Shown: piece by piece, positions 1,588 through 37,668 of the stretch
How the letters are laid out: every line of letters starts with the position of its first letter
Position numbering within the stretch: position 1 is the first letter of the stretch
Assembly: GCA_020848745.1 (NCBI GenBank)
Contig: JADLHM010000141.1
Span: 1-38,598 of the forward strand
Length of the DNA: 38,598 nucleotides
Direction of reading: 5' to 3'
Source of the DNA: Deltaproteobacteria bacterium
Lineage (GTDB): Bacteria > Desulfobacterota > Binatia > UTPRO1
Made by a program: the position numbers and the translations under genes
Notes under the pieces: model-generated
The model's input: only the letters and a program-made list of their open reading frames with translations
Databases searched by the model: none
Told to the model about the DNA's origin: nothing

Positions 1588-1917
1588 TCAGTTCGCGGTG
1601 GAGGGTGCTTCCACCGGCGCGTCGGCCGCCGGCGCCTCGCGTGCGGGCGCCGGCTGCGCGCGCGTCACCGCCTCGAAGCGGGCGACGAGCTCTTCGAAGC
1701 GGCGCGCCATCTGCTCGCTCCGCCCGGCGACGTCCTCGAGGCGGCGCGCCATGAACGTGCGCTGGTCCTCGAGCTCGCGGATCTTTCCCTCGAGCTCCTG
1801 GACGCGCGGGTTGGCGGCGATGATGTAGTTGCCCGCGCCCGACGTCACCATGAACACCGCGCCGGCCACGCCCAGGATGAACCCGAGCAGGAACCCCACC
1901 AGTATCTTCAAGATCAT
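1588..1917 (-). CDS. Small membrane-anchored coiled-coil protein
   Basis: This 109-residue protein has one N-terminal membrane segment (about residues 3-25, MILKILVGFLLGFILGVAG), then a polar heptad-like helix (about 37-85, rich in Glu, Arg and Leu, e.g. VQELEGKIRELEDQ), and ends in a low-complexity Ala/Pro tail. The topology suggests an anchor with a coiled coil in the cytoplasm or periplasm. I cannot assign a named family. Its ATG overlaps the glutamate dehydrogenase stop as ATGA, which fixes the start and implies translational coupling. The methyltransferase gene follows in the same direction. A role in glutamate dehydrogenase function is not implied by anything in the sequence. Confidence 0.75.
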   Translation of the reverse strand: MILKILVGFLLGFILGVAGAVFMVTSGAGNYIIAANPRVQELEGKIRELEDQRTFMARRLEDVAGRSEQMARRFEELVARFEAVTRAQPAPAREAPAADAPVEAPSTAN

Positions 1918-4900
1918 GCGGCCTCCTCCAATCGTCCGAGCTCGCGCACCAATACCATGATCGCGGGGAGTGTGACGGTCCCGGCGCTCTGGAGGTCGGC
2001 GAGGAGGGCGCGAATGCGTTCCAGGGTGGCGGCGCGGCGGAGGCGGAAGGTGACGACCCGCGCCGCGACCTCGCCGCTGCCGGCGAGGAGCTGGCGGGTG
2101 AGCTCGCGGCGCACGTGGTCGAGCTCGGCGCCGAGGCTTTCGACGGCGCGGCGCTCCCAGCGGTCCTCGCCGGCGACGTCGTCGAGCGCCTGTCGGAGCC
2201 ACGCGAAGTCGAAGATCTCGGCCGCGCCGAAGTACGCGGCGGCGGCGGTCGCGGGCGGAATGTTCGTCGCGCCGGCGACGTGGGCGACGTCGAGGAGGGC
2301 ACGCAGCCCTTCCAGCCGGACGCAGGCCGCGGCGAGGTCCGTCGGCACCTGCTCCGCGACGAGGGCGGCGACGCGGGCGTCCCGGCGGGCGCGCTCCGCG
2401 GCGGGCAACGCCGCCTCCGCCTCGGCGAGGGCGGGCCGGGTGCGGTCGATCATCGCGTCGAGCGGACCGAGGCGCGGGTAGGCGGCGAGGATCCAGCGCA
2501 CGGCGCGATCGAGTCCGGCGACCACCAGGTCCAGGATGCGTGTTTCGATCGTCGGGCCCGCGTCCACGGCTCGCGCCGCGATCGCCCGCGCGTCGGAGAG
2601 CGCGTCGGCGACCACGAACGCGCGTGCGACGTCCGGGGCCGTCGCGCCGCTCTCGCGCATGGTGCGGGTGAAGAAAGCGGCGCCCATCAGGTCCACGACG
2701 TCGTTGGTGAGGGTGGTCGCGATGATCTCGCGGCGGAGACGGTGCACGCGGATCGCGTCGCGGCAGCGGGCGACCATCCGCGCCGGGAAATACGCCAGCA
2801 GCACGCGCTCGAGGTGGGGATCCTCGCAGAGCGCGTCGCTCGCGAGGAGCCGCGTCGCGTGCATCTTGGCGTAGGCGAGCAGCACCGCCAGCTCCGGCCG
2901 GGTGAGGCCGCGGGCGATCGAGCGCCGGGCGCGCAGCGCGTCGCGGTCGGGGAGTCCCTCGAGGGCGCGATCGAGGAGGCCGGTCGCCTCGAGGTCAGCC
3001 ATCATCTCGCGGAAGTGGACGAGCCGGGTCTCGCTGCGGCGCTGATCGCGCGAGATGGCGCGGCTCTGGCTCCGGTTGTGCGCGAGCACGAGCGCGGCCA
3101 CGTCCTCGGCGAGCTCCTGGAGGAGCGCGTTCCGCTCGGCCGTCGTCATGGCGCCGCTCGCCACCGGCGGCTGGAGCGCGATCTTGAGGTTCACCTCGTG
3201 ATCGGAGGTGTCGACGCCCGCCGAATTGTCGATGGCGTCGGTGTTGATGCGTCCGCCGGCGAGCGCGAACTCGACCCGGGCGCGCTGCGTGAAACCGAGG
3301 TTCCCGCCTTCGCCGACGACGCGCGCGCGCAGCTCGCTCGCGTTGACGCGCACGGTGGCGTTCGTGCCGTCGCCGACGTCGGCGTTGCTCTCGCCGCGCG
3401 ACTTCACGTACGTGCCGATGCCGCCGTTGAAGAGCAGGTCGGTCGGCATCCGCAGAACCGCCTGGATCAGCTGGTCGCCGTCGATCGTCTCGGCGGCGAT
3501 GCCGAGCATGGCGCGCGCCTCGGCCGAGAGGCGGACGATCTTCGTGCCGCGCGGGATCACCGCGCCTCCCGCGCTCAGCGCCTCGGGGCGATAGTCGGCC
3601 CAGCTCGAGTGCGGCAGGGCGAACAGGCGCGTGCGCTCGGCGTACGATGCCTCCGGATCCGGGTCGGGATCGAGAAAGACGTGGCGGTGGTCGAACGCCG
3701 CGCGCAGCCGCGCGGCGCGGGAGCACAGCAGGCCGTTCCCGAAGACGTCGCCGCTCATGTCGCCGATGCCGGTCACCGTGAAAGGGTCGCGGGCGACGTC
3801 GCGTCCGTCGAGCTCGCGGAAGTGGAGCGCGACGCATTCCCAGGCGCCGCGGGCGGTGATGCCCATGCGCTTGTGGTCGTACCCGTGCGAGCCGCCCGAG
3901 GCGAAGGCGTCGCCGAGCCAGAAGCCCCGCTCCTCGGCGAGCGCGTTGGCGACGTCCGAGAACGTCGCGGTGCCCTTGTCGGCGGCGACGACCAGGTAGG
4001 GATCCGGCTCGTCGTGGCAGACGGTCCCCTCCGGACGCGCGATGCGGTCGCCGTCGACGTCGTCGGTGAGGTCGAGGAGGCAGCCGACGAACGTGCGATA
4101 GGCGTCGAGCACCGCCGGCGGACTCACGGGCCCCTTCACGACGAAGCCGCCCTTCGCGCCGACCGGCACGATGACGGCGTTCTTCACGGTCTGCGTCTTC
4201 ATGAGGCCGAGGACCTCGGTCCGGAAGTCGTCGCGCCGATCGCTCCACCGCAGACCGCCCCGCGCGATGCGTCCCGCCCGCAGGTGCACGCCCTCGATGC
4301 GCGGGCCGTGGACGAAGATCTCGTACAACGGGCGCGGCTTCGGCATGTGGTCGACCCGGGTGCCATCGATCTTGAACGCGACGGTGTCGCCGCGGCCGGC
4401 CGCGAGCCCGGCGTAGTAGCTCGTCCGGACGGTCGCGCCGACCATGTTGCCGAGCGCGCGGAGCACGCGGTCGTCGGCGATGCTCGGGACGTCGTCGAGC
4501 GCGCGCACGAACGCCTCGTAGGCCGCGGAGGCGCGGCCGCGATCGGCGTGCGGGTCGTGGCGCGCGCCGAACCACGCGAAGAGCAGCGCGGCGTGGCTCG
4601 GGTTGCGGATGAGCGCCTCGACCGACGCCCGCGGGCTCGGCGCCGCGCCGATCTGCGCCGCGTAGGCGGCGTAGGCGCGCAGCACTTGCACCTCCTGCCA
4701 CGCGAGGCCGGCGGCCGGCACCAGGCGGTGCAGCCCGTCGCTCTCGACCCGACCCTCGCGGACGGCGAGCACGGTCGCGACGAGGCGCGCGGCGTCGCGC
4801 GCGACGTCCACGCGATCGCCCGCCTCGGTCCGCACGAGGAAGGTCTCGACGTGGGCGGGCGCGCCGTCGAGCGCGGGCAGGAGCACGGTGTTCTCCGCGA

Positions 4901-6668
4901 ACACCCGCAGGCCGAGGTCTTCGAGCACGGGCATGACGTCGGAGAGGACGAGGGGCTCCCGCAGATAGAGCTTGAGCGCGGTGTAGGGCTCGGGATGTCC
5001 GGCGGCGTCGGCGAGGGCGATTCGCGTCCTGCCGCCGCCGGCGAGGGCCTCGAGCTCCGCCACGTCGTCGGCGGCGGTTGCCGGGTCGGTCGCCGCCTTG
5101 TAGGCGTCCGGAAAGATCGCCGCGTAGCGGTCCGCGAGGGCCGCACCGTCGACGTCGCCCCGCGCGCTGCGCAGCCGATCGCGCAGGCGGTCGTTCCAGC
5201 CGCGCGTCAGCTCGGCGATCTCGCACTGCAGGTCCTCGCGCCGGATCGCCAGCACCTGGGCACGCGACGCGGCGAGCGAGACGTGCAGGCGCGCGTGCTC
5301 GCCCTCGCCGAGCACGACGTGGTCTTCGACGACCTCGCCGCCGAAGCGCGTCGCCAGCAGGTCGCGCACGCGGTCGCGGACGACCTCGGAGAAGGCGTCG
5401 CGCGGCATGACGATCGTGGCGGCGACGCCGCGCTCGAGCGGATCGGGGCGCAACGTGAGCGACAGCTCGCGCGTGCGCTCGGCCGCGAGGATCGCGCGGA
5501 TCTCGCCGCGGATCGCGTCGACCGACATCGCGAAGAGATCGGCCTTGGGCAGCGTGTCGAAGACGGCCAGGATCTCGCGGTGCTCGTGCGAATCCGGGAC
5601 GACGCGCTCGGCCTGCAACACCTGCTGCAAGCGCCGCCGCAAGACCGGGATCTCCGAGGCCTCGTCGGCATGGGCCTGGAAGGTGAAGAGTCCGAGGAGG
5701 CGGAACTCGCCGCGCACGCGACCCTGGCGGTCGAGCTTCTTGACGCCCACGTACTCCATCCGCACGTCGCGGTGGACCGGGGCGTGGGCGGTGGTGCGCG
5801 CGAGGACGAGCAGCGGTCCGCCGACCACGCGGCTGCGTATCGGCTCGGGGATGCTCGCGACCGGCGTCGGCTCGGCGTAGTGCGAGCGCTCCGTGCGACG
5901 GAGGAGCCCGAGACCGGAGTCGGGGTCGAGCGCGAGGGTCGGCACGTCGTCGCGCTCCTCGAGGGAGACGCTGCGGTACCCGAGGAAGACGAAGCCGCCG
6001 GCGATCAGCCAGCGCAGCAGCTCCTGGACCTCCTGCACCTCGTCGTCCCAGGCCGCGCTGCCGCCCTTGTACCCGTCGAGGTGCGCGACGACCCCCTCGG
6101 TCGCGGCGACGAGCGCGGGATAGTCGTCCGTCACGAGCACGAGGTCGGCGAGGCGCGCGGCGACGCTCGCCTCGAGATCGGCGCGGCGCTCCGCGTCGAG
6201 GGGCGGCAACACGGCGAGCACGAGCGACTCGCGCCGGCCGCTCTCGCCCGCAGCGTCGAGCCCCTGGAGCCGTCCGAGCTCGCCGCCGGCGGCGGGCTCG
6301 CGCCGCGTCGTCAGCAGCGGGTGGAGGACGTGGCGGACCTCGATGCCCGCCGCCCGCACGCAGTTGCGGATCGTGTCGACGATGAACGGGCGATCGGTCG
6401 CGACGGTCTCGAGGACGGTGGCCACGTCGTCCGCGCGGGTCCGGACGCGCGGCGCCTGGCCGGGCGCCGCGAGGAAGGCGAAGCTCCGCGTGGCGACCGC
6501 GGCGGCCGCCTCGTCGCCGAGCTCCTCGGCCCAGGGCTCGCCGTCCTTGCTGAAGAGGGCGGTGGCCAGCACGGCGATCGCCTCGTCCTCCCATCCCGCG
6601 TGGCGTTCGCGCACGCGGGAGACGATGCGCGCCAGACGATCGGTCTCGACGGCCGCCGGGCGGCTCAC
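1914..6668 (-). CDS. gdhB: NAD-specific glutamate dehydrogenase, large (180-kDa-type) family
   Basis: The enzyme oxidatively deaminates glutamate to 2-oxoglutarate and ammonium with NAD+, feeding carbon into the TCA cycle. At 1584 residues it has the length of the large bacterial class described in Streptomyces and Pseudomonas. The catalytic core is clear: GGLRWSDRRDDFRTEVLGLM, then PVGAKGGFVVKGP with the substrate-binding lysine near residue 839, followed by VVAADKGTATFSD and ASGGSHGYDHKRMGITARGA, then TGIGDMSGDVFGNG. The long N-terminal region is the regulatory, ACT-like part of the family. The GTG start at 6668 shares four bases (GTGA) with the stop of the upstream gene, which supports this start. 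The stop overlaps the next gene's ATG, so three genes are translationally chained. The symbol varies between organisms (gdhB, gdh2). Confidence 0.93.
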   Translation of the reverse strand: MSRPAAVETDRLARIVSRVRERHAGWEDEAIAVLATALFSKDGEPWAEELGDEAAAAVATRSFAFLAAPGQAPRVRTRADDVATVLETVATDRPFIVDTIRNCVRAAGIEVRHVLHPLLTTRREPAAGGELGRLQGLDAAGESGRRESLVLAVLPPLDAERRADLEASVAARLADLVLVTDDYPALVAATEGVVAHLDGYKGGSAAWDDEVQEVQELLRWLIAGGFVFLGYRSVSLEERDDVPTLALDPDSGLGLLRRTERSHYAEPTPVASIPEPIRSRVVGGPLLVLARTTAHAPVHRDVRMEYVGVKKLDRQGRVRGEFRLLGLFTFQAHADEASEIPVLRRRLQQVLQAERVVPDSHEHREILAVFDTLPKADLFAMSVDAIRGEIRAILAAERTRELSLTLRPDPLERGVAATIVMPRDAFSEVVRDRVRDLLATRFGGEVVEDHVVLGEGEHARLHVSLAASRAQVLAIRREDLQCEIAELTRGWNDRLRDRLRSARGDVDGAALADRYAAIFPDAYKAATDPATAADDVAELEALAGGGRTRIALADAAGHPEPYTALKLYLREPLVLSDVMPVLEDLGLRVFAENTVLLPALDGAPAHVETFLVRTEAGDRVDVARDAARLVATVLAVREGRVESDGLHRLVPAAGLAWQEVQVLRAYAAYAAQIGAAPSPRASVEALIRNPSHAALLFAWFGARHDPHADRGRASAAYEAFVRALDDVPSIADDRVLRALGNMVGATVRTSYYAGLAAGRGDTVAFKIDGTRVDHMPKPRPLYEIFVHGPRIEGVHLRAGRIARGGLRWSDRRDDFRTEVLGLMKTQTVKNAVIVPVGAKGGFVVKGPVSPPAVLDAYRTFVGCLLDLTDDVDGDRIARPEGTVCHDEPDPYLVVAADKGTATFSDVANALAEERGFWLGDAFASGGSHGYDHKRMGITARGAWECVALHFRELDGRDVARDPFTVTGIGDMSGDVFGNGLLCSRAARLRAAFDHRHVFLDPDPDPEASYAERTRLFALPHSSWADYRPEALSAGGAVIPRGTKIVRLSAEARAMLGIAAETIDGDQLIQAVLRMPTDLLFNGGIGTYVKSRGESNADVGDGTNATVRVNASELRARVVGEGGNLGFTQRARVEFALAGGRINTDAIDNSAGVDTSDHEVNLKIALQPPVASGAMTTAERNALLQELAEDVAALVLAHNRSQSRAISRDQRRSETRLVHFREMMADLEATGLLDRALEGLPDRDALRARRSIARGLTRPELAVLLAYAKMHATRLLASDALCEDPHLERVLLAYFPARMVARCRDAIRVHRLRREIIATTLTNDVVDLMGAAFFTRTMRESGATAPDVARAFVVADALSDARAIAARAVDAGPTIETRILDLVVAGLDRAVRWILAAYPRLGPLDAMIDRTRPALAEAEAALPAAERARRDARVAALVAEQVPTDLAAACVRLEGLRALLDVAHVAGATNIPPATAAAAYFGAAEIFDFAWLRQALDDVAGEDRWERRAVESLGAELDHVRRELTRQLLAGSGEVAARVVTFRLRRAATLERIRALLADLQSAGTVTLPAIMVLVRELGRLEEAA

Positions 6669-7066
6669 GGCGTCACCGGGCGCCGCCGGATGCGCGCCGC
6701 GTCCTCCCAGGGCTGGTCGACCGGAAAGGCGGCGTCGGCGTGCACCTCGATCCGCGCGCAGCCGCGCGCCGCGGCGCGCGCTCCGGCGCAGGCGAGGAGC
6801 GCGGCGACGGCCGCGGCGTCGCCGCGCAGCTCGCGTACCATCGCGGTCGTCGGACCGAGCCCGCGCACGTACGCGATCACGACGAGCCCGGCGAGGGCGT
6901 CCGCGCCTTCCCGCTCGGCGACGTAGAGGTCCTCGCGGAGCGTGCCGACGAGCCGCCGGAAGCGCTTGCGGTCCGCGCGGGCCGCGTCGAGCGGAGCGCC
7001 GAGCAGGGCTCGTACGCGCGTGAAGTCGTCCCGGCGCGCGCGCCGCACCACGAGCCCGGCCAGCAT
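6665..7066 (-). CDS. GNAT-like acyltransferase, probable
   Basis: This is a protein of 133 residues from the ATG at 7066. It begins with a typical GNAT first strand (LVVRRARRDDFTRVRALL). A strand pair follows (LYVAEREG, then LAGLVVIAYVRGLG), and a later helix and strand (AGARAAARGCARIEVHAD) resembles the end of the acetyl-CoA-binding core. The usual Q/RxxGxG/A loop is not obvious, so activity is uncertain and it may be degenerate or non-catalytic. An upstream ATG at 7132 would add 22 residues that do not look like part of the fold. It is the first gene of the chain into glutamate dehydrogenase, overlapping it by four bases. The substrate is unknown. Confidence 0.6.
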   Translation of the reverse strand: MLAGLVVRRARRDDFTRVRALLGAPLDAARADRKRFRRLVGTLREDLYVAEREGADALAGLVVIAYVRGLGPTTAMVRELRGDAAAVAALLACAGARAAARGCARIEVHADAAFPVDQPWEDAARIRRRPVTP

Positions 7067-7162
7067 GGCCCCGGTGTTTACCAACCGGGACGCGGCCGGG
7101 CCAGCGGAGGGCATCGCGAGATCGGCTCGCATCCTCGTCGGCTCGCGCCCGCCGGCGTCCGG

Positions 7163-9067
7163 TCAGCGCGTCTTCTGGCGGCAGACGACGCGGTTCGCGC
7201 GTCGGTTCGTCTGGCAGCCGCTCGCGCTGACGTAGCGTTCGCTCGCGACCGCCACCGACAGTACGAGCTCGGGGGCGCGGCTGCGCTCGAGGTCGAGATG
7301 CGCTGCGGTCAGGGCGAGCGTATAGCGCGCGCCGTCGCGCGAGTGCAGCGTGACCTTCTTCACGCCGCCGAGGAGCTGGCCCGTCTTGTCGGCGAACGAC
7401 AGGCTCGTGCCGTTGCGGTTCATCTTCCAGTCGCGCGCGGGGACGACCACCTGCATCAGCTGGTCGCCGTCGGTCTTGGCGAGCGTCATCGTGAGCGCTT
7501 GCCCCGCGACCTCCGCCATCGCGGCGGCCGCGATCGCGTCGAAACGGCCCTTGATGGTGATCGAGTCCTCGTGCGCGGCCTTCCCGATCGCGATCCGCAT
7601 CGACTGGATCACGAGGAGGCCGCACGCGTCCGTGGCGAGCTGGTCGGGATTCGCCATCGCGTCGCAGTTGTCGCACGCGTCGCCGATGCCGTCGCCGTCG
7701 ATGTCCTCCTGCCGTCCGTTGGACGCCGCGGGGCAATTGTCCTCGGCGTCGGCGATGCCGTCGGCGTCGGCATCCGGCGGCGGAGGCGTCGGCGCGATGG
7801 TCGGCGTCGGCGCCGGCGTCGGCTCGCCCGCGCCGTTCCCGGGGTACAGATAGCTCGCGCCGGCGCGGTCGTCGTCGGTGAGGCCGGCGCCGCGGCCGTC
7901 GAAGTGGGCGAACGAGTACATCGTTGCGCTCGCGTCGGTGGAGTGCGCGAGGCCGATCGTATGGCCGATCTCGTGCGTCGCGACCTCCGCGAGGTTGGTC
8001 GCGTTCCAGAACGAGCAGCCGCTCCAGCCGTTGTTGAAGATGATGTCGCCTTCGACCACCTCGCGGAACGTCGTGCCGGCGAAGGTCTTCGACGCGCCGC
8101 CGGCGCAGTAGCCGCCGATGGCGAGGACGCCGCCGCAGCCCGAGGGATCGGTCACCTCGTTGAACGGGTCGTTGAAGACGATCTTGCTGGTGCCGTCGCA
8201 GAAGCCGTTTGCGGTCGCCGCGGTCGTTCCGGCGGACTGCATGACCAGCGACGATGTCGGTACGCCGGTCCACACGGCGAACGCGTCGTTGATCGCTTTC
8301 TGGCTGGCGGTGAAGCCGATCTTCGCGTCGCCGGCCTGATCGAGGTAGTACCGCACCGGCTGGCCCTCGTCGGGGAGGAACCAGCGCACGTTGTTGAAGA
8401 GCTTGAACCCCTCGGCGTCGGTCGGCGCGGGGACCGTCGCGGCCGCGCGCGCGCCGGAGGCCGACGCGAGCGGCTGCAGCATGCGCGGCACCGGCTGACT
8501 GCGCACGATGTCCTGAAGCCGGGCGACGAACGGGCCGGCGAGGCGACGGTCGGCCGGGTCGTGGGTCTGGAGGCGCGCGCCGCCGAGGACCACGACGCCG
8601 TCCTCGTCGAGCGAGCGGCTCGCGACGCGCGCGCCGCTCGCGGGATCGGTCGCGACCGAGAACTTGCCGAGCCCCATCTGGGTCGTGCGGAGAAACCCCT
8701 CGCCGTCCTGGCCCAGGAAGGCGATGACGCTCTCGCCGACCTCGTAGCGCGCGGCGCCGTAGAGGTGCAGCTCGTCGTCGCCGACGCGGCCGCCGGGGTC
8801 GCGAATCGTGATGGTCGCCTGCGGGAGATATCCTTTGATGACGTGCTCCACCGCGAGGGTCGTGAACGTGACGATCGAGCCGCCGCTCGTGCGCTCGGCG
8901 TGCACGTCGGCCACGGTGCCGGTCACGATCGCGTCGGCGGAGAGCGTGAGCGCCTCGTCGCTCATGCGGACGAGCGTCGTCGCGCGTGCGGGCGCCGACA
9001 TCAGGAGCAGCAGCCCGGCGAGCGCGGCCGCGACGCGCAGCGTGACGAGAACGGACCGACGAAGCAT
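7163..9067 (-). CDS. Secreted matrixin-like zinc metalloprotease with thrombospondin type 3 repeats
   Basis: This 634-residue protein starts with a signal peptide (basic MLRRSVLVTLR, hydrophobic core, cleavage near SAPARA, about residue 30). An N-terminal region of unknown fold covers about 30-200. The catalytic domain has the metzincin zinc motif HEIGHTIGLAHS followed by a Met-turn (ATMYSF), and several cysteines around GGVLAIGGYC that suggest disulfides. A Pro/Thr linker (PTPAPTPTIAPTPPPP) leads to two calcium-binding thrombospondin type 3 repeats (DADADGIADAEDNCP, DIDGDGIGDACDNC). A C-terminal beta-rich domain of about 170 residues ends in two cysteines and a basic tail. The protein is expected to act outside the cell or on the surface. 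A GGAGGGG Shine-Dalgarno precedes the ATG. Confidence 0.87.
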   Translation of the reverse strand: MLRRSVLVTLRVAAALAGLLLLMSAPARATTLVRMSDEALTLSADAIVTGTVADVHAERTSGGSIVTFTTLAVEHVIKGYLPQATITIRDPGGRVGDDELHLYGAARYEVGESVIAFLGQDGEGFLRTTQMGLGKFSVATDPASGARVASRSLDEDGVVVLGGARLQTHDPADRRLAGPFVARLQDIVRSQPVPRMLQPLASASGARAAATVPAPTDAEGFKLFNNVRWFLPDEGQPVRYYLDQAGDAKIGFTASQKAINDAFAVWTGVPTSSLVMQSAGTTAATANGFCDGTSKIVFNDPFNEVTDPSGCGGVLAIGGYCAGGASKTFAGTTFREVVEGDIIFNNGWSGCSFWNATNLAEVATHEIGHTIGLAHSTDASATMYSFAHFDGRGAGLTDDDRAGASYLYPGNGAGEPTPAPTPTIAPTPPPPDADADGIADAEDNCPAASNGRQEDIDGDGIGDACDNCDAMANPDQLATDACGLLVIQSMRIAIGKAAHEDSITIKGRFDAIAAAAMAEVAGQALTMTLAKTDGDQLMQVVVPARDWKMNRNGTSLSFADKTGQLLGGVKKVTLHSRDGARYTLALTAAHLDLERSRAPELVLSVAVASERYVSASGCQTNRRANRVVCRQKTR

Positions 9068-9294
9068 CGAACCCCTCCGCGACCCGAACGTGGGTCACGG
9101 GGCGCGCAGCAAAGCAGGTGCCAGCAGCGGGAGCGCATGGGACGCGCGCGGTCGTCGCTACGAGCCCGCGCTTGCGTGCCGGGCGCGTGGCGACCGTCAT
9201 CGACGTGACGGAAAGCTGACGCGCGCGTCGGAAGACGGACTCGCGGCTCGCATGTCCGTTGCCTTGCAGCTTCGCTTGGCGCTAAAGACCGGCC
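9068..9294. other. Divergent intergenic region between metalloprotease and MBL hydrolase
   Basis: This 227-base gap must carry the promoters of both flanking genes. On the plus strand, TAAAGA at 9283-9288 lies only seven bases before the ATG, with TTGCCT 18 bases upstream, which would give an almost leaderless transcript, but the match is weak. No repeat, RNA gene or convincing short reading frame is seen. Confidence 0.3.
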
Positions 9295-22466: not shown

Positions 22467-24169
<1,703 letters not shown>

Positions 24170-24173
24170 GAGT

Positions 24174-24218
24174 CTCCGCACGGACCGGCCTTCCAGCTCG
24201 GATCCGATCCGTGCGGAG
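24174..24218. terminator. Inverted repeat after eno
   Basis: CTCCGCACGGA (24174-24184) is matched exactly by TCCGTGCGGAG (24208-24218) around a 23-base loop. It lies right after the eno stop, but no T-run follows. A factor-assisted terminator or an mRNA 3' structure is likely. Confidence 0.5.
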
Positions 24219-24384
24219 CTTCCCTCGGAATTCGCCCGCGTCCGGTCCATGTTTCTGAGCTGGTTTAAAACGCTCTGTTACTCTTTCCCCCAGGGAGGGG
24301 TGAACGCGATTTTAAGCTCGCGAGTGTCTCCCGACATGACTCTGATTCTCCATCGGAATTCAGTTCCAAAATGCAATTTTTCTC

Positions 24385-24414
24385 TTGACATGCGCTACAG
24401 CACTTTCCTATGAT
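24385..24414 (+). promoter_or_regulatory. Near-consensus sigma70 promoter of the 25-residue peptide gene
   Basis: TTGACA (24385-24390, perfect) is followed after 18 bases by TATGAT (24409-24414, five of six). The surroundings are AT-rich and the downstream gene has a strong Shine-Dalgarno. This is one of the best promoter matches in the window. Confidence 0.75.
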
Positions 24415-24511
24415 GCCATCCGGTTGAGTGGTGGGGTGGCTGTGGATCGGGGGAGCGCTCGCCTGAGCGAACCTAGGGTCAAACGCAGCTAACGTTTTTG
24501 AGGAGGTGCCT

Positions 24512-24589
24512 ATGGCAGCCAAGAAGAAAGCGTCCAAGGCCAAGAAGAAAGCGCCGGCCAAGAAGGGCGCTGCCAAGAAGAAGAAGTAG
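24512..24589 (+). CDS. 25-residue Lys/Ala-rich histone-H1-like basic peptide
   Basis: The reading frame ATG (24512) to TAG (24587-24589) encodes 25 residues with 13 lysines and 8 alanines, in KKKA/AKKK blocks with one Pro, one Ser and one Gly. It is preceded at 24500-24507 by GAGGAGGT, an essentially ideal Shine-Dalgarno with a suitable spacing. Upstream is a near-consensus promoter and downstream is a strong terminator, so it has its own transcription unit. The composition resembles the tails of histone H1 and bacterial histone-like proteins and implies binding to nucleic acid or another polyanion. There is no acidic residue. Small RNA function for the transcript, with an incidental reading frame, is an alternative. 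I assign no specific role. Confidence 0.72.
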   Translation: MAAKKKASKAKKKAPAKKGAAKKKK

Positions 24590-24663
24590 CTTCTTCTCTT
24601 CAGTTCTGTTCGCAGCGAGAAGTTCTCGTAGCGTGTAGTTTCCGTCTGGACTCAGGCGAGGTG

Positions 24664-24682
24664 TAGAGCCCCCTGGGCTCTA
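24664..24682 (+). repeat. Small hairpin in the 3' UTR of the peptide transcript
   Basis: TAGAGCCC (24664-24671) pairs with GGGCTCTA (24675-24682) around CCT, an exact 8-bp stem. It sits 9 bases before the terminator hairpin, making a tandem structure. Confidence 0.5.
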
Positions 24683-24691
24683 TGGAAAAAG

Positions 24692-24722
24692 GCCCTTCGG
24701 CTTCCCGTCGAAGGGCTTTTTT
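24692..24722 (+). terminator. Intrinsic (Rho-independent) terminator
   Basis: GCCCTTCG (24692-24699) pairs perfectly with CGAAGGGC (24709-24716) over a 9-base loop and is followed by six Ts (24717-24722). An A-run (24686-24690) on the other side would allow function in both directions. It ends the peptide transcript and lies only 9 bases before the next ATG. Confidence 0.85.
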
Positions 24723-24731
24723 CATGTTCCG

Positions 24732-25502
24732 ATGCCGACCGATCTCTCCGGAATCACCGTCGACGTCGCGCGCGCCGAGGCATCCCGCTTCCGGCACCCG
24801 CTGTTGCTGCTGCACGGGTTGTGGACCGGAGGATGGATCTGGCGCGATTTCTCCGCGTACCTCGCGCATCGCGGATGGGACGCATGGGTTCCGTCCTTCC
24901 TTTCCGGACGCGAGGCGCCCGGCGTGGAGAGCCGCCGGCGCGCGCTCCTCGATGTCTGTCGTGATCTTCCCGCTCCGCCGGTCGTCGTGGCGCACGACGC
25001 CGGCTTGGTGTTCGCCGATCTCATCGCCCGTGATCTCCCCCTGCCGGCAATCGTCGCGATCGCACCGCTCGCGCTCCGTCGCCCGGCCGTCTGGAATCGG
25101 CCGCGCTGGTGGAGCGCCGCGCTCGGAGGAGACCGGGTCGCACCGCCGGAAGGTGCGGCGGATCCGTTCGCGAGCGGGATTTCCGAAGCGGACGTCCGCC
25201 GTCTGCGAACCGATTCGGGAGAGCTCTTTCGGCGCGTGGGCTTACGGGAGCGCGAGCCGGGACGGCTCGTGCTCCCCGGGCTCGTGGTGGCCGCGGAGGC
25301 GGATCCCGCGGCGCGGCTCGCGGACTGTCGAGGTCTCGCCGCGCAACGATCCTGGGACTTGAGGATCCAGGCGGTCTCCAGTCATTTCCCGATGCTCGGC
25401 CGTTCGGCGACCCGTCTCGCGGACAGCGTCCATCGCTGGATCGTGCGGACGCTCGGCGCCGACCTCCTCGCCTGGGTCGAGGACGATGAGCCCGACGAGT
25501 GA
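24732..25502 (+). CDS. Alpha/beta hydrolase with aspartate nucleophile motif
   Basis: This 256-residue protein has the alpha/beta hydrolase fold: PLLLLHGLWTGGWIWRDF carries the oxyanion HG, and the elbow reads VVVAHDAGLVF, so Asp89 takes the place of the usual serine. Aspartate at this position is typical of epoxide hydrolases and haloalkane dehalogenases (HDWG-type). A candidate acid is in VVAAEADPAARL and a histidine base is in VSSHFPML. The cap region is short. The tail is acidic (EDDEPDE). The ATG lies 9 bases after the T-run of a strong terminator, and there is no Shine-Dalgarno. Expression may therefore depend on read-through or on a start upstream. Substrate unknown. Confidence 0.8.
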   Translation: MPTDLSGITVDVARAEASRFRHPLLLLHGLWTGGWIWRDFSAYLAHRGWDAWVPSFLSGREAPGVESRRRALLDVCRDLPAPPVVVAHDAGLVFADLIARDLPLPAIVAIAPLALRRPAVWNRPRWWSAALGGDRVAPPEGAADPFASGISEADVRRLRTDSGELFRRVGLREREPGRLVLPGLVVAAEADPAARLADCRGLAAQRSWDLRIQAVSSHFPMLGRSATRLADSVHRWIVRTLGADLLAWVEDDEPDE

Positions 25503-30436: not shown

Positions 30437-30799
30437 GTGCTGGACCAATACATCGGCGTCGTCATCACGTTCGCGCTCGGCGCCGTGATCGTCCTCGGGA
30501 TGGTCTCCGGCAGCATGATCTTCGGCGTGCGGAGCAAGTCGCGTCGGGCCGTGAAGGACGAGGTCTTCGAGTGCGGCAACCCTTCGTCGGGTCCCGCCCG
30601 CGGCCGCTTCTCGGTGCACTTCTACCTCGTGGCGATCCTCTTCATCGTCTTCGACGTCGAGGTCGTGTTCATGTACCCGTGGGCGATCGTATTCCGGCAG
30701 CTCGGCGTCCCGGGGCTCATCGAGATGCTCACGTTCGTTGCCGTCCTGGGGTTCGGTCTCGCCTACGTCTGGCGGCGCGGGGCGCTCGCGTGGGATTGA
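30437..30799 (+). CDS. nuoA: NADH-quinone oxidoreductase subunit A
   Basis: NuoA is a small membrane subunit at the junction between the arms of Complex I. The 120 residues show three membrane helices, the loop FECGNPSSGPARGRFSVHFY, and the conserved FDVEVVFMYPWAIVF. The start is GTG at 30437, since no ATG fits. It overlaps nuoH by ten bases. In the usual operon nuoB follows nuoA, but here nuoH does, skipping B to G. Confidence 0.95.
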   Translation: MLDQYIGVVITFALGAVIVLGMVSGSMIFGVRSKSRRAVKDEVFECGNPSSGPARGRFSVHFYLVAILFIVFDVEVVFMYPWAIVFRQLGVPGLIEMLTFVAVLGFGLAYVWRRGALAWD

Positions 30800-31887
30800 T
30801 CGAGGTCGGCATCGCGGCGGCGAAGGCGTTCGCCGTGTTGATGCTCGTCCTCCACATGAGCGCCGTCCTGCTCTGGGTCGAGCGCAAGGGCAGCGCGCTC
30901 ATTCAGGACCGCATCGGCGCCAATCGGGCCAACATTTTCGGCGTGATGCCGGTCAATTTCGGCCTCATCAACACGCTCATCGCCGACCCGATCAAGCTGC
31001 TCACCAAGGAGGACATGGTGCCGGCGGGGGCCGACAAGCTCCTGCACTTCCTGGCGCCGTTCCTGGCGGTCTTCCCCGTCATGGTCACGTTCGCGGCGAT
31101 CCCGTTCGGCGACCGGCTCGTGATCGGCGACCACAGCATCAACCTCCAGGTCGCCGAGCTCGACATCGGCATCCTCTACGTCCTCGCGATGTCCTCGCTC
31201 GCGGTCTACGGCGTGGTGCTCGGAGGCTGGGCGTCGAACAGCCGGTGGGCGCTCCTCGGGGGCATCCGGGGCTCGGCCCAGATGATCTCGTACGAGATCG
31301 CGCTGGGGCTCGCCCTCATCGGCGCGGTGATGACGTTCGGTACGCTCGACATGCAGGCGATCGCCCGCGCTCAGGGGCATCACTTCTTCGGCGTGATCCC
31401 CGCGTGGGGCGTGCTCTATCAGCCGCTCGGGTTCCTGATCTTCCTGATCGCCGGCATCGCGGAGACGAAGCGCGTGCCCTTCGACCTCCCCGAGGGCGAG
31501 TCCGAGCTCATCAGCGGGTACTTCACCGAGTACTCGGGCATGAAACAGGCGGCCTTCATGTTGAGCGATTTCGCGGAGAGCGTCGTCGTCGCCGGGCTCG
31601 CGACCACGCTCTTCTTCGGCGCGTGGCAGGTGCCGTTCCTCTTCCGCGACGGCTTCCATCTGCCGGGCGGGGCGATCGTCGCCCTGCCGCACCTCGCGGT
31701 CGTCGGCCTCCAGGTCGCGAGCTTCACGGTCAAAGTCTTCGCGCTCTGCGTGTTCCAGATCCTCGTACGCTGGACGCTCCCGCGCTACCGCTACGATCAG
31801 GTGATGGACCTCGGGTGGAAGTACCTGCTGCCCCTGGCGCTCGCCAACATGCTGGTGACGGGCATCGTCATCGTGCTGCTCGGGTGA
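30790..31887 (+). CDS. nuoH: NADH-quinone oxidoreductase subunit H
   Basis: NuoH forms most of the quinone-binding chamber with the peripheral arm. The 365 residues have about eight membrane helices, the N-terminal [25 protein letters not shown] motif, and the conserved loop [31 protein letters not shown]. The family usually reads AETNR; this one has Lys, a minor change. GTG at 30790 overlaps nuoA and is the start consistent with the family; TTG at 30796 is possible. The stop overlaps nuoJ if its GTG is used. Confidence 0.95.
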
Positions 31888-31892
31888 TCGCG

Positions 31893-32405
31893 ATGGGCGC
31901 CGCGCTCTTCCTTCTCGTCGCCGTCCTGACCGTCGCCGCGGCCCTCGGGGTGGTCCTGCACCCGAATCCGGTCAAGTGCGCGCTCTTTCTCGTGGTGACC
32001 CTCTTCCTCCTCGCGGTCGTCTTCGTGTTGCTCGAGGCCCACATGATCGCGGCGCTCCAGATCATCGTCTACGCCGGCGCGATCATGGTGCTCTTCTTGT
32101 TCGTCATCATGCTCCTGAATCTCCGGAGCGACGACCCCGAGCGCGGCCGGCGACGCTACGCCCTGCGCGGCCTCGCCTGGATGGGTGGCGTGGTCTTCGC
32201 GATCGAGCTCGCCTTGCTGGTGCGCGGCGCGACGGTAGGCTCCGCGGGAGCCGCGCCCGAGGGCTACGGCGGCGCGGCCGCCGTGGCGCGGAGTCTCTAC
32301 ACGGATTTTCTCCTCCCGTTCGAGCTGACGTCGATCCTGCTGCTGGTGGCGGTGGTGGGGGCGGTCGTGCTCGCGCAGAAGCAAAGGCGACCGACGCTCT
32401 CATGA
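31893..32405 (+). CDS. nuoJ: NADH-quinone oxidoreductase subunit J
   Basis: NuoJ is a membrane subunit with the pi-bulge helix that couples quinone reduction to proton transfer. The 170 residues contain five membrane helices and the typical [51 protein letters not shown] region. ATG 31893 places [11 protein letters not shown] at the N-terminus as in relatives; GTG at 31884 would add three residues and overlap nuoH by four bases. It is followed by an ATGA overlap with nuoK. The gene nuoI is missing between H and J. Confidence 0.93.
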
Positions 32406-32707
32406 TCATCCAGACCGAATGGGTCCTGATGCTATCGGCCGTGCTCTTCGCCATCGGTGTCGTCGGGGTGCTCGTGCGCCGCAACGTCATCGTCATCTTC
32501 ATGGCGATCGAGCTCATGCTGAACGCCGTGAACCTGAGCTTCATCGCGCTCGCGCGGGCGCGGGGCGCGGTGGACGGGCAGGTGGTCGTCTTCTTCGTGA
32601 TGACGGTCGCCGCCGCGGAGGCCGCCGTCGGGCTCGCGATCATCATCGCGTCCTTCCGCAACCGGACCACCGTCAACGCCGACGAGCTGGCGTTGCTGCG
32701 CGGGTGA
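32402..32707 (+). CDS. nuoK: NADH-quinone oxidoreductase subunit K
   Basis: NuoK has three membrane helices and belongs to the proton channel near NuoJ and NuoN. The 101 residues match the family length. Conserved glutamates are present in [17 protein letters not shown] and in [13 protein letters not shown]. The ATG at 32402 overlaps the nuoJ stop (ATGA), and nuoL starts four bases after the nuoK stop. Confidence 0.95.
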
Positions 32708-32711
32708 CCCG

Positions 32712-34658
32712 ATGCACGAGACCCACGCCGCCGCCGAAGCCGTGATCCTGCACTCGCAGATGCTCTGGTTGATTCCGTTCTTCCCGCTCGCCGGATTTCT
32801 GATCGCCGTGTGCGCCGAGCGCTTGTCCGGGCTCGTGAAGATCACGTCGCCGCTCGCGGTGCTGGCCGCGCTCGCGGTCGCGGTCTCCTCCGTGGCGACG
32901 CTCTTCGGCGCTCCCGAGGGGGCGCGCCTCTCCCAGACCGTCTACACGTGGATGGCTGCCGGGTCGTTTCATGCCGACATCGCGTTCCGTATGGACGCGC
33001 TCTCGGCGGTCATGGCGCTGGTCGTGACCGCGGTCGGCTTCCTGATCCACGTCTACTCCGTCGGCTACATGGGCCACGACGAGAGCTGCCCGCGTTTCTT
33101 CGCGTACCTGAACCTCTTCATGTTCGCGATGTTGCTGCTCGTGCTCGGCGACAACCTCCTCGTGTTGTTCGTCGGGTGGGAGGGCGTCGGGCTGTGCTCC
33201 TATCTATTGATCGGCTTCTGGTACGAGAGCGACGACAACGCGGCCGCGGGCAAGAAGGCGTTCATCGTGAACCGCATCGGCGACATGGGCTTCGTGCTCG
33301 GCCTCTTGCTCCTCGCCTGGAGCCTGGCTCCGGCGGCGGGGGGCGCGCTCAGCCTCGACTTCGCTCACATCCAGGCGCATGCGGCGAGCCTCGATTCCGG
33401 CACCGCGACGGTCATCGCGCTCCTCTTGCTCATCGGCGCGACCGGCAAGTCGGCGCAGATCCCGCTCTACACCTGGTTGCCGGACGCGATGGCGGGTCCG
33501 ACGCCCGTCTCGGCGCTGATCCACGCCGCGACGATGGTGACCGCCGGCATCTACATGATCGCCCGGCTGAACGTCGTGTTCGCGCTCAGCCCCGCCGCCA
33601 TGCAGGTGGTCGCCGTGCTCGGCGCCATGACCGCGCTCTTCGCCGCCACGATCGCGCTCGTGCAGACCGACATCAAGAAGGTGCTCGCCTACTCGACGGT
33701 GAGCCAGCTCGGCTTCATGGTGCTGGCGCTCGGCGTCGGCGCCTTCGCGACGGCGGTCTTCCATGTGATGACCCACGCCTTCTTCAAGGCGCTCCTCTTC
33801 CTCGCCGCCGGGAGCGTGATCCACGGCATGAGCGGCGAGCAGGACGTCCAGAAGATGGGCGGGCTCCGCACCAAGATGCCGGTCACCTTCTGGACCTTCT
33901 TGATCGGCACGCTGGCGATCGCGGGCGCCCCCGGCTTCGCCGGCTTCTTCAGCAAGGACGAGATCCTCTACCACGCGTGGGCGGGCGGCCATCCGTGGCT
34001 CTGGCTCACCGCCACGATCACCGCGACGCTCACGGCCTTCTACATGTTCCGCCTGCTCTTCCTGACCTTCTTCGGGGAGCTGCGCGCCGACCACGACGTC
34101 GCGCATCACGTCCACGAGTCGCCGCCGGTCATGACGATCCCGCTCGTCATCCTCGCCCTGCTGTCGATCGTCGGCGGCTGGGTCGGACTGCCCGAGCACT
34201 GGCTCTGGGGGAACCGCTTCGGCCACCTCCTCGCGCCGGTGACGGGGTACCCGCACCTCGCGGAGGGCGGCATGCTGGGCGAGGGCGCGCTCATGCTGAT
34301 CGCGACGACGCTCGCGATCGCGGGCGCGCTGCTCGCCTATGTCTTCTACCTCCGGCTCCCGGGTCTCCCCATGGTGCTGAGCTGGCGGCTGAAGGGCGCC
34401 TACGAGCTGCTGCTCAACAAGTACTGGATCGACGAGCTCTACGATGCGGTGATCGTCGCTCCCTACGTGCGGCTCTCGACGTTCCTCTGGAAAGTCGCCG
34501 ACCAGGAGCTCATCGACGGGTTCGTGAACGGCCTCGCCGGCGCGGTCGGCGCGAACGGCAACCTCTGGCGTCACGCCCAGACCGGCAACGTCCAGCACTA
34601 CGCACTCGCGTTCCTCGGCGGCGTCGTCGCGGTGCTCGCCTACTACGTGATGCGATGA
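32712..34658 (+). CDS. nuoL: NADH-quinone oxidoreductase subunit L
   Basis: NuoL is the distal antiporter-like proton pump of the membrane arm, with the long lateral helix at its C-terminus. The 648 residues show the expected features: FVGWEGVGLCSYLLIGFW with the charged Glu, TGKSAQIPLYTWLPDAMAGPTPVSALIHAATMVTAGIYM, LVQTDIKKVLAYSTVSQLGFM, the HAFFKALLFLAAGSVIH segment, and the C-terminal helix after about residue 530 (KGAYELLLNKYWIDELYDA). The length is in the normal range (E. coli NuoL has 613). It overlaps nuoM by ATGA. Confidence 0.96.
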   Translation: MHETHAAAEAVILHSQMLWLIPFFPLAGFLIAVCAERLSGLVKITSPLAVLAALAVAVSSVATLFGAPEGARLSQTVYTWMAAGSFHADIAFRMDALSAVMALVVTAVGFLIHVYSVGYMGHDESCPRFFAYLNLFMFAMLLLVLGDNLLVLFVGWEGVGLCSYLLIGFWYESDDNAAAGKKAFIVNRIGDMGFVLGLLLLAWSLAPAAGGALSLDFAHIQAHAASLDSGTATVIALLLLIGATGKSAQIPLYTWLPDAMAGPTPVSALIHAATMVTAGIYMIARLNVVFALSPAAMQVVAVLGAMTALFAATIALVQTDIKKVLAYSTVSQLGFMVLALGVGAFATAVFHVMTHAFFKALLFLAAGSVIHGMSGEQDVQKMGGLRTKMPVTFWTFLIGTLAIAGAPGFAGFFSKDEILYHAWAGGHPWLWLTATITATLTAFYMFRLLFLTFFGELRADHDVAHHVHESPPVMTIPLVILALLSIVGGWVGLPEHWLWGNRFGHLLAPVTGYPHLAEGGMLGEGALMLIATTLAIAGALLAYVFYLRLPGLPMVLSWRLKGAYELLLNKYWIDELYDAVIVAPYVRLSTFLWKVADQELIDGFVNGLAGAVGANGNLWRHAQTGNVQHYALAFLGGVVAVLAYYVMR

Positions 34659-36226
34659 ACGGCTTCGAACCAGCCGGCGGAACCGGCAACGTGCTCCTGA
34701 GCCTCGTCGTCTGGACGCCCATGATCGGCGCGTTCCTCGTGCTGCTGCTGCCGCGCGAGCAGGTGGACGGCGCCAAGCGCGCGGCCTTCGTGTTCTCGTC
34801 GATCACGTTCCTGTTGTCGCTCGGCCTGTGGGCCGGGCTCCGCCCCGACACGGCGGAGTTCCAGTTCCTCGAACAGCACCCGTGGATCCCGGACTGGGGC
34901 ATTCAGTACCTGCTCGGCGTCGATGGGGTGAGCCTCTTCCTCGTGCTGCTCACCACGTTCCTCACGCCGCTCGTGATTCTCTTCTCGTTCGGCGACGTGC
35001 AGAAGCGCGTGAAGGAGTACTTCTTCTTCATGCTGATGCTCGAGACGGGGATGATCGGCGCCTTCGTCGCGCTCGACCTCTTCCTCTTCTACGTCTTCTG
35101 GGAGCTGATGCTCGTGCCGATGTACTTCATCATCGGCATCTGGGGTGGCCAGCGCCGGGTGTACGCCTCGATCAAGTTCCTCCTCTACACCCTGACCGCG
35201 AGCCTCCTGATGCTGCTCGCGATCCTCTACCTCGTCGGCGCCCACGTTCGCGCCGGCGCGCCGACGACCTTCGACGTCCGGCTCCTCTACGACGTGGCGC
35301 TGAGTCCGCGGGAGCAGGGGTGGCTCTTCGCCGCTTTCGCGCTCGCGTTCGCGGTGAAGGTGCCGATGTTCCCGCTCCACACCTGGCTCCCCGACGCGCA
35401 CGTCGAGGCGCCGACGGGCGGCTCGGTCATCCTCGCCGCCATCATGCTGAAACTCGGCACCTACGGCTTCCTGCGTTTCGCGATGCCGCTCTTTCCGGCG
35501 GCGACGGTGGCGGCGACGCCCTTCGTCGTGGCGCTCGCGGTGATCGGCATCGTGTACGGGGCGATGGTCGCCATGGTGCAGCCCGACTTGAAGAAGCTCG
35601 TCGCGTACTCCTCGGTGTCGCATCTCGGCTTCGTGATGCTCGGCCTCTTCGCCGTGAACCCGATGGGCATCCAGGGCGCCATCTATCAGATGTTGAACCA
35701 CGGGCTCTCGACGGGCGCGCTCTTCCTCCTGGTCGGCATGATCTACGAGCGCCGCCACACGCGCCTGATCGCGGACTTCGGCGGCCTCTGGAAGCCGATC
35801 CCGCGCTACGCGGCCGTGTTCTTGCTGGTCACCTTGTCGTCGATCGGATTGCCGGGCCTGAACGGCTTCGTCGGCGAGTTCCTGATCCTGCTCGGCGCCT
35901 TCGGCGAGAGCCGTCTCGCGACGGTCGTCGCGTCGAGCGGCCTCGTGCTCGGCGCGGTCTACATGCTGTGGATGTTCCAGCGGCTCGCCTTCGGCCCGCT
36001 CCGCCACGAGGAGAACGCGACGCTCGAGGACCTCCGGCCGCGCGAGATCGCGGTGCTGGTGCCGGTCGTCGCCATGATCGTCGTGATGGGCGTCTACCCG
36101 AAACCGTTCCTCGAGGTGATGGAGCCGTCGGTGAAGGGGATCATCGCCCGCATGGAGAAGCACCAGGCGCGCGCCGTCGCCGTCGAGGCGGACCACGCGC
36201 CGGCGAAGCACGCGGGGGGCGTCTGA
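34655..36226 (+). CDS. nuoM: NADH-quinone oxidoreductase subunit M
   Basis: NuoM is the second antiporter-like proton pump. Of 523 residues, the conserved segments are VFWELMLVPMYFIIGIWGG with the channel Glu, VPMFPLHTWLPDAHVEAPTGGSVILAAIMLKLGTYG, MVQPDLKKLVAYSSVSHLGFV, and MLNHGLSTGALFLLVGM. The C-terminal tail is charged and variable. The start is ATG at 34655, overlapping nuoL by four bases; the stop overlaps the nuoN start by one base (TGATG). Confidence 0.96.
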   Translation: MNGFEPAGGTGNVLLSLVVWTPMIGAFLVLLLPREQVDGAKRAAFVFSSITFLLSLGLWAGLRPDTAEFQFLEQHPWIPDWGIQYLLGVDGVSLFLVLLTTFLTPLVILFSFGDVQKRVKEYFFFMLMLETGMIGAFVALDLFLFYVFWELMLVPMYFIIGIWGGQRRVYASIKFLLYTLTASLLMLLAILYLVGAHVRAGAPTTFDVRLLYDVALSPREQGWLFAAFALAFAVKVPMFPLHTWLPDAHVEAPTGGSVILAAIMLKLGTYGFLRFAMPLFPAATVAATPFVVALAVIGIVYGAMVAMVQPDLKKLVAYSSVSHLGFVMLGLFAVNPMGIQGAIYQMLNHGLSTGALFLLVGMIYERRHTRLIADFGGLWKPIPRYAAVFLLVTLSSIGLPGLNGFVGEFLILLGAFGESRLATVVASSGLVLGAVYMLWMFQRLAFGPLRHEENATLEDLRPREIAVLVPVVAMIVVMGVYPKPFLEVMEPSVKGIIARMEKHQARAVAVEADHAPAKHAGGV

Positions 36227-37668
36227 TGGAGCAGCTGCTGCTGCCGGCGATCGACTGGCTCGCGATCCTCCCGGTCGGCCTGACGTCGATCCTCGGCCTC
36301 GTTCTCCTGGCCCTCGGGCTCTTCGTCGACGACGACGAGACGCTCGGTTGGATCACGCTGATAGGCCTGGCCGTGACCGCAGTCGCGACCGCGTGCCTCG
36401 CCGGTCAGAAGTCGATCACCTTCAACGGGACGTTCGCGCTCGACGGCTACGCGCTCTTCTTCGATCTCCTGTTCCTGGTGACCGGCATCGTCGTCGTCCT
36501 GATGTCGATGACCTACCTCGAAGGCACGGGCATCCCCTCGGGCGACTATTATGGCCTCGTCGTCTTCGCGATCGCGGGCATGATCGTGATGGCGTCCGCG
36601 ACCGACCTCATCGTCGTGTTCCTCGGCCTCGAGATCATGTCGATCAGCGTCTACGTCCTAGCCGGCGCGTGGCGGACGCAGCTCCGGTCGAACGAGGCCG
36701 CGATGAAATACTTCCTGCTCGGCGCGTTCGCGACGGGCTTCCTGCTGTACGGCATCGCGCTCGTCTACGGGGCGACCGGCGCCTTCCGGCTCGACCAGAT
36801 CGCGGCGGCGGTCGGCGGCACGCCGAATCGCTCCATGCTGATCGCCGGCGTCGCGATGCTGATCGTCGCGTTCGGGTTCAAGGTGGCCGCGGCGCCGTTC
36901 CACATGTGGACCCCCGACGTCTACGAAGGGGCGCCGACCACCGTCACCGCGCTGATGGCGGTCGCGGTGAAGGCCGCGGGCTTCGCGGCCTTCGTGCGGG
37001 TCTTCCTCCACGGCTTCGGCGGGCTGCACGCCGACTGGTCGATGCTGCTCTGGGTGATCGCCGCGCTCACCATGACGGTCGGCAACGTGCTCGCCCTCGC
37101 GCAGCGGAGCGTGAAGCGCATGCTCGCGTACTCGAGCGTCGCGCACGCCGGATACATCCTCGTGGCGCTCGTCGCTGCGGGCTCCGCCGGCGGCACCGCG
37201 GCGCTCTTCTATCTGCTGGTCTACTCCTTCATGACGCTCGGTGCGTTCGGCGTCGTGGCCGCGCTCGGCTCGGTCGGTGAGCCGAACGAGACACTCGACG
37301 ACTACGCGGGTCTCGGGTTCCGCCGCCCGCTCCTCGGTGTCACCATGACGATTTTCATGCTGTCGCTGACGGGGATTCCGCCGCTCGCGGGATTCGCCGG
37401 CAAGCTCTACGTCTTCACGGCCGCGATCCGCGAAGGCTACTACGTGCTCGCCGTGATCGGCGTCCTCAACAGCGCGATCTCGGCCGCCTACTACGTCCGG
37501 GTGCTGATCGCGATGTACCTGACGCCCGCCGCCGAGGAGCACGGCCGCGTGCCGCGGCAGCCCTATCTGTTGACGTCGATCGTGCTGTCGGCGGTCATGA
37601 CGGTCGTGGTCGGCGTCTTTCCCGCGATCTGGATGCAGCTCGCGCGCTTCGGGTTCCTGTCGCTCTGA
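36226..37668 (+). CDS. nuoN: NADH-quinone oxidoreductase subunit N
   Basis: NuoN is the antiporter-like subunit closest to the quinone site. The 480 residues include FLGLEIMSISVYVLAGAW with the channel Glu, APFHMWTPDVYEGAPTTVTALMAVAVKAAGF with the conserved pocket, RMLAYSSVAHAGYILVAL, and the C-terminal GIPPLAGFAGKLYVF. It closes the operon. The downstream 86-base gap has only a weak hairpin, so a clear terminator is not seen. Confidence 0.96.
   Translation: MEQLLLPAIDWLAILPVGLTSILGLVLLALGLFVDDDETLGWITLIGLAVTAVATACLAGQKSITFNGTFALDGYALFFDLLFLVTGIVVVLMSMTYLEGTGIPSGDYYGLVVFAIAGMIVMASATDLIVVFLGLEIMSISVYVLAGAWRTQLRSNEAAMKYFLLGAFATGFLLYGIALVYGATGAFRLDQIAAAVGGTPNRSMLIAGVAMLIVAFGFKVAAAPFHMWTPDVYEGAPTTVTALMAVAVKAAGFAAFVRVFLHGFGGLHADWSMLLWVIAALTMTVGNVLALAQRSVKRMLAYSSVAHAGYILVALVAAGSAGGTAALFYLLVYSFMTLGAFGVVAALGSVGEPNETLDDYAGLGFRRPLLGVTMTIFMLSLTGIPPLAGFAGKLYVFTAAIREGYYVLAVIGVLNSAISAAYYVRVLIAMYLTPAAEEHGRVPRQPYLLTSIVLSAVMTVVVGVFPAIWMQLARFGFLSL

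Follow-up and report, generated by a model that had tools for sequence, protein, structure and literature searches.

Lysine-rich bacterial proteins resembling histone H1 have been described in several genera, among them Hc2 of Chlamydia, its counterparts in Bordetella and Burkholderia, and AlgP of Pseudomonas; Hc2 binds DNA (PMC2848022), whilst AlgP acts on the spacing of polyphosphate granules (PMC9239181). Messages that fold back on themselves have also been reported: the 5′ and 3′ untranslated regions (UTRs) of icaR mRNA in Staphylococcus aureus pair with one another (PMC3868564), and in the type I toxin messages of the hok/aapA kind a short open reading frame (ORF) is combined with paired message ends (PMC6733600). 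H1-like proteins and UTR pairing are thus each already known, and we found no description in the open-licence literature of a dedicated micro-gene whose message ends are paired across a whole class. Here we analyse such a locus, at positions 24385–24722 of a 38,598-nucleotide (nt) stretch of deltaproteobacterial DNA (the window, to which all coordinates refer). It is a complete small transcription unit flanked by enolase and alpha/beta hydrolase genes, and comparison with relatives shows conservation of the 25-residue Lys/Ala peptide, the promoter, the Shine-Dalgarno sequence and an end-to-end pairing of the message. Its parts are as follows.

24357–24384, + strand: UP-element-like stretch AATTCAGTTCCAAAATGCAATTTTTCTC, directly 5′ of the −35 element; class consensus AAAAAATTTCCAAAATGNCATTYTYCT, with the near-palindrome AAAATGNCATT inside
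24385–24414, + strand: sigma-70-type promoter TTGACA-18-TATGAT, with the −35 element at 24385–24390 and the −10 element at 24409–24414
24421–24511, + strand: 5′ leader of about 90 nt, the start site being an estimate
24458–24467, + strand: 5′ arm of helix P1, CTCGCCTGAG, perfect complement of 24651–24660; covaries between families
24500–24507, + strand: Shine-Dalgarno sequence GAGGAGGT, 5 nt before the ATG at 24512
24512–24589, + strand: micro-gene MAAKKKASKAKKKAPAKKGAAKKKK, stop TAG; 25 residues, 13 of them Lys; frame conserved, with third-position substitutions
24651–24660, + strand: 3′ arm of P1, CTCAGGCGAG, complementary to the 5′ arm; covaries
24664–24682, + strand: hairpin P2, TAGAGCCC-CCT-GGGCTCTA, between the P1 3′ arm and the terminator; conserved in the family except for its loop, which varies
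24686–24722, + strand: intrinsic terminator AAAAAGGCCCTTCG..CGTCGAAGGGCTTTTTT, by computed fold; conserved in the family

A first-pass annotation had read this locus as a self-contained gene dedicated to a short peptide akin to an H1 tail, of a kind that gene callers would miss, and that reading stands. The promoter called near-consensus matches at 11 of 12 positions and is the sole promoter-like site on either strand of 23500–25500 (shuffled sequences give 0.1). The Shine-Dalgarno sequence described as ideal and the 25-codon frame with its 13 lysines are as listed above, and the strong intrinsic terminator folds as a 16-pair hairpin with a T run at its end, although it was absent from the output of the consensus scan. 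The AT-richer island was likewise correctly noted, with 52–57% G+C in the stretch vs 65–72% outside.

Relatives were sought by several routes. A tblastn search with the 25-mer across the phylum returned the window itself as its sole match; since short, low-complexity queries fail in tblastn, we relied on DNA comparison, synteny and a promoter model. With a 501-base query, blastn gave matches in 28 of 58 related genomes, ranging from 93% within the genus to short stretches covering the Shine-Dalgarno sequence and frame in other families, and inspection revealed short Lys/Ala frames after GGAGG in nearly all of these loci. Ten additional members came from inspecting the DNA downstream of enolase in genomes with no blastn match. 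Further members were reached through R1, a sequence model built on the promoter and searched in 148 genomes of the class, which matches in 56 of them, nearly always once per genome. These routes together yielded 66 distinct members, spread over 12 families of one class (families are referred to below as f1, f2 and so on), with lengths of 12 to 112 residues, 12–40 in most. Every one of the 66 starts with ATG and has GGAGG no more than 18 nt from it, and the spacing from Shine-Dalgarno to ATG is 5 nt in 52. Three loci from the first search (L018, L021 and L028) were dropped, having either no frame or only the Lys-rich tail of a longer protein. Two divergent Lys-rich frames after AGGAGG are probable members outside the 66, one of 34 residues (L215, genome G038, f9) and one of 56 residues directly 3′ of enolase (L126:353, genome G055, f5). 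The shortest frames, MAKKKAKKKKKK and MAAKKKAKKKKKK, both belong to f2, the latter occurring in several genera. Frames of 12–13 codons in this family (L164, L177, L185, L186, L191 and L193) sit between a leader and a 3′ UTR that are both strongly conserved, and are, to our knowledge, among the shortest conserved proteins.

An enolase-based scan of genome contigs gave other phyla only, and there was no short Lys-rich frame within those enolase loci. Matches in other classes are mostly portions of longer proteins, and among the promoter-model matches there a Lys-rich frame was seen only in f24, where the same promoter type precedes a 73-residue Lys/Ala/Pro protein and the paired leader is absent. 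For this reason the protein seems to be the more ancient component. In another class of the phylum, a ribosomal protein THX-like frame (L156) carries an extra Lys/Ala tail that resembles the peptide.

The first-pass annotation had named loss of the reading frame in relatives as grounds for abandoning the gene. The frame is instead kept, and change within it is mainly synonymous. The block SKAKKKAPAKK is retained in 16 members from several families while its third positions vary, with all four Ala codons and both AAA and AAG in use; the only departures from silent change are two Lys/Arg exchanges and the presence of both kinds of Ser codon. Pairwise counts between frames of the same family and length, which are not independent of one another, give differences at codon positions 1/2/3 of 16/17/109 in f2, 6/6/16 in f1, 3/2/15 in f15, 6/0/15 in f6 and 0/0/6 in f8, and differences in length between members stay in frame. 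As codon changes are mostly silent, we conclude from this comparison that the peptide is under selection and probably translated. Because the frame, start, Shine-Dalgarno sequence, promoter and terminator recur in other genera and families, the comparison also identifies a conserved, vertically inherited gene and excludes chance.

Over 35 members the composition is 47.5% Lys, 27.8% Ala, 5.0% Arg and 4.9% Pro, with three acidic residues in all 35 proteins, one Ile and no Leu, Phe, Trp or Tyr, which is consistent with a disordered polycation. Protamines and the C-terminal tails of eukaryotic H1 are likewise short disordered polycations with KKKAPAKK-like motifs, a likeness that does not imply shared descent with the peptide. 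With the bacterial H1-like proteins (PMC2848022, PMC9239181) the peptides have in common low complexity, richness in Lys, Ala and Pro, and variation in length through the number of in-frame repeats. They differ in size, at 12–112 residues vs 165–237 for Hc2, and in being encoded by a dedicated structured mRNA. The 25-mer has no match to Pfam HC2 (PF07382) or to the NCBIfam hist_H1_lk_Burk and Hc2 profiles. A 78-residue member from f5 matches HC2 and hist_H1_lk_Burk weakly and below threshold, the best relative reaching 19.4 bits against a cut-off of 40 for Pfam HC2 and 23 against 80 for the NCBIfam H1-like profile. Such profile scores agree in kind with H1-like proteins but fall short of family membership.

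The second conserved feature is the pairing of the message ends. In the window, CTCGCCTGAG (24458–24467) is perfectly complementary to CTCAGGCGAG (24651–24660), and in other families the arms are altered yet complementary: CTCACCTGAG/CTCAGGTGAG, GTGTCTGTG/CACAGACAC, TTTGCCTGTGAGGGTG/CACCCTCACAGGCGAA, GTTTCGTCG/CGACGAAAC, CTCGTGCGGAGGGA/TCCCTTCGCACGAG and GAGTTCGAGACGGGGG/CCCCCGTCTCGAACTC, the last being an example of the quite different arms of f7, f10 and f15. When 3′ UTRs were exchanged between families, 1 of 100,000 and 3 of 200,000 permutations reached the score of the messages' own complementarity, and the sharing of one core by many families makes this a conservative test. Across 31 aligned arm pairs, both sides change in 7 of the 11 pairs of P1, and the covariation score is 0.200 vs 0.123 ± 0.015, with 0 of 500 shuffles as high; the register of the arms was fixed by the conserved core and in a few rows by hand, and kinship between rows inflates the covariation somewhat. 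The 5′ arm lies about 45–70 nt before the ATG and the 3′ arm directly precedes the terminator hairpins; the Shine-Dalgarno sequence and frame therefore lie in the loop, uncovered by P1. Computed folding places the Shine-Dalgarno sequence outside P1 and, in 65% of members, assigns P1 a probability of more than 0.5. The covariation argues that the 5′–3′ structure of the transcript is itself selected. Some families add a helix that crosses P1, identified by eye in f2/f90 (GGGAGGGUUU/AAACCCUCC) and in f11/f13/f15 (UGGUGGGUGGCU/GGCCAUUCACUA), and the message may therefore be a pseudoknotted closed loop.

A G/U-rich GAGTGGTGGGGTGGCTG element stands at the beginning of the leader and is present in many families of the class, whilst five f5 loci (L016, L025, L124, L027 and L127) carry another conserved element in the leader, AGGGGUUCCCACA(AC), 5′ of the Shine-Dalgarno sequence, found in f5 only. 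The 3′ UTR in f2 holds a near-invariant AAACCCUCCUUA (in L164, for example, at about +30 to +45 past the stop), which is complementary to the gene's own Shine-Dalgarno sequence and contains the 16S anti-Shine-Dalgarno sequence CCUCCUUA. Two described RNAs were considered and rejected: the ends of 6S RNA (RF00013) also pair, but its covariance model has no match at the locus and separate 6S loci exist in f2, f10 and f14 genomes; for tmRNA, ARAGORN finds no tRNA-like domain.

Upstream of the −35 element a class-wide stretch, AAAAAATTTCCAAAATGNCATTYTYC, with its near-palindrome, resembles an UP element; it is absent from f4, f5 and f10. A regulon for it was sought in the window's genome and not found, as the element occurs there once at up to 3 mismatches. 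The combination of this stretch with the promoter suggests strong expression.

The two genes next to the locus are:

22772–24169, + strand: enolase, upstream neighbour, by Pfam
24732–25502, + strand: alpha/beta hydrolase, downstream neighbour, by Pfam

The peptide frame comes right after eno in f1, f4, f5, f7, f10 and f15 and about 1–3 kb beyond it in f11 and f13, and hydrolase-like frames were read by eye downstream of the locus in f2, f6, f7, f8 and f13. The locus thus sits among housekeeping genes of conserved order, the neighbours kept between families being gcvH, eno, the hydrolase and cysH (partly by eye). Elsewhere, the window encodes a large NAD-glutamate dehydrogenase of the Bac_GDH_CD family (1914–9200, − strand, a 2428-residue frame) and NADH dehydrogenase subunits (30571–37668, + strand; NADHdh and two Proton_antipo_M proteins). 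The first-pass suggestion of a processed effector is not supported: the peptide lacks any hydrophobic stretch that could serve as a signal, genes for maturation or export were not seen adjoining, and the neighbours are housekeeping genes in conserved order.

Considering these observations together, the peptide and the folded message both appear to matter. The explanation we favour, to which we give an even chance of being correct, is a micro-gene for a highly expressed polycation resembling an H1 tail or protamine, whose mRNA ends are tied together for stability or autoregulation. A promoter with an UP-like element would drive the gene, and a near-perfect Shine-Dalgarno sequence would direct translation of a short disordered polycation of 12–112 residues, about half Lys and a quarter Ala with almost no acidic or aromatic residues. 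The mRNA would fold back so that the leader arm pairs with the 3′-UTR arm, looping out the Shine-Dalgarno sequence and frame, with a crossing helix added in several lineages. The peptide may serve as a non-sequence-specific counter-ion for nucleic acid, or for polyphosphate, in the manner of H1 tails and protamines; such binding is its most likely function, at about even odds. It might, as the first-pass annotation proposed, compact DNA or bind ribosomes or RNA. The tied ends may stabilise a short message, or may allow the peptide to restrain its own mRNA by binding it. Several points weigh against this explanation. The poly-Lys of f2, at 12–17 residues, is very short for DNA compaction, and there is no clear copy in some members of the class, namely f9 (bar one), f12 and f14. 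The crossing helix is just suggestive when all families are taken together (2,754 of 100,000 permutations). For the genus to which the window belongs, minimum-energy folding favours a local hairpin, CGCUC-GCCU-GAGCG, over P1, with the 3′ arm paired elsewhere; P1 and the local hairpin may be two states of the message.

The balance between peptide and RNA could be struck differently. The first-pass alternative that the transcript is a regulatory RNA holds in so far as it has a selected, covarying 5′–3′ structure, but this structure belongs to an mRNA whose peptide is itself selected and does not replace that peptide, and a purely regulatory RNA is unlikely. The transcript could still be the main product, a dual-function or mainly structural, pseudoknotted RNA that acts in trans or binds protein, with the poly-Lys peptide as a built-in cofactor binding its own RNA. 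Covariation of the UTR arms across families contrasts with a frame that is reduced to as few as 12 codons in f2, a family in which parts of both the leader and the 3′ UTR hardly vary, and the crossing helices point the same way. However, frame, Shine-Dalgarno sequence and amino acids are conserved throughout with mostly synonymous substitution, f24 has promoter and protein with no paired leader, and an Rfam search of the locus gave no match, and we consider this account rather improbable. We would entertain, tentatively, an undescribed class-wide RNA family, pseudoknotted and with its ends paired around a poly-lysine micro-ORF of as few as 12 codons, in which RNA and peptide act together as a ribonucleoprotein or self-regulating switch.

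Precedents exist for a folded-back 3′ UTR that controls translation (PMC3868564, PMC6733600), here perhaps of a peptide that is a signal. As in icaR, the Shine-Dalgarno sequence is a potential pairing partner of the f2 3′ element; pairing of AAACCCUCCUUA with either the leader element GGGAGGGUUU or the Shine-Dalgarno AAGGAGG would allow an on/off switch in this family. The element ACCCUCCUUA, complementary to both partners, is little changed in 20 alignment rows, and the competition between P1 and the local hairpin in the window's genus would suit such regulation. In the other families, however, P1 leaves the Shine-Dalgarno sequence uncovered and no anti-Shine-Dalgarno element was seen by eye in the 3′ UTRs; a self-regulated message of this type is doubtful. 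The pairing also differs from that of icaR in covarying over a whole class and in having, in most families, a 5′ arm positioned far upstream of the Shine-Dalgarno sequence. The small size, own promoter and terminator and 5′–3′ folded mRNA also recall the hok/aapA type I toxins (PMC6733600), but this peptide is cationic and nowhere hydrophobic (Leu and Phe are missing from all 35 members, which have a single Ile between them), no sign of an antisense RNA was seen, the scan of both strands nearby giving no second promoter-like site that could supply one, the promoter is single-copy in the genome, the neighbours are kept between families and P1 leaves the Shine-Dalgarno sequence free, all of which make a toxic peptide very improbable. 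A chance frame in a purine-rich stretch, with the RNA alone or nothing functional, is scarcely credible: the sequence is of low complexity and AAG runs arise easily, but comparison already contradicts it, since across the 66 members the ATG and Shine-Dalgarno sequence are conserved, lengths change in frame and substitutions fall on third positions.

In conclusion, these data indicate that selected proteins of 12–25 residues, composed almost wholly of Lys and Ala, exist as single-gene units overlooked by annotation, and that pairing between the two ends of a bacterial message can be maintained across a whole class. The locus offers a case in which to test whether the pairing of mRNA ends serves stability or autoregulation, and its product is a possible minimal bacterial ‘protamine’.
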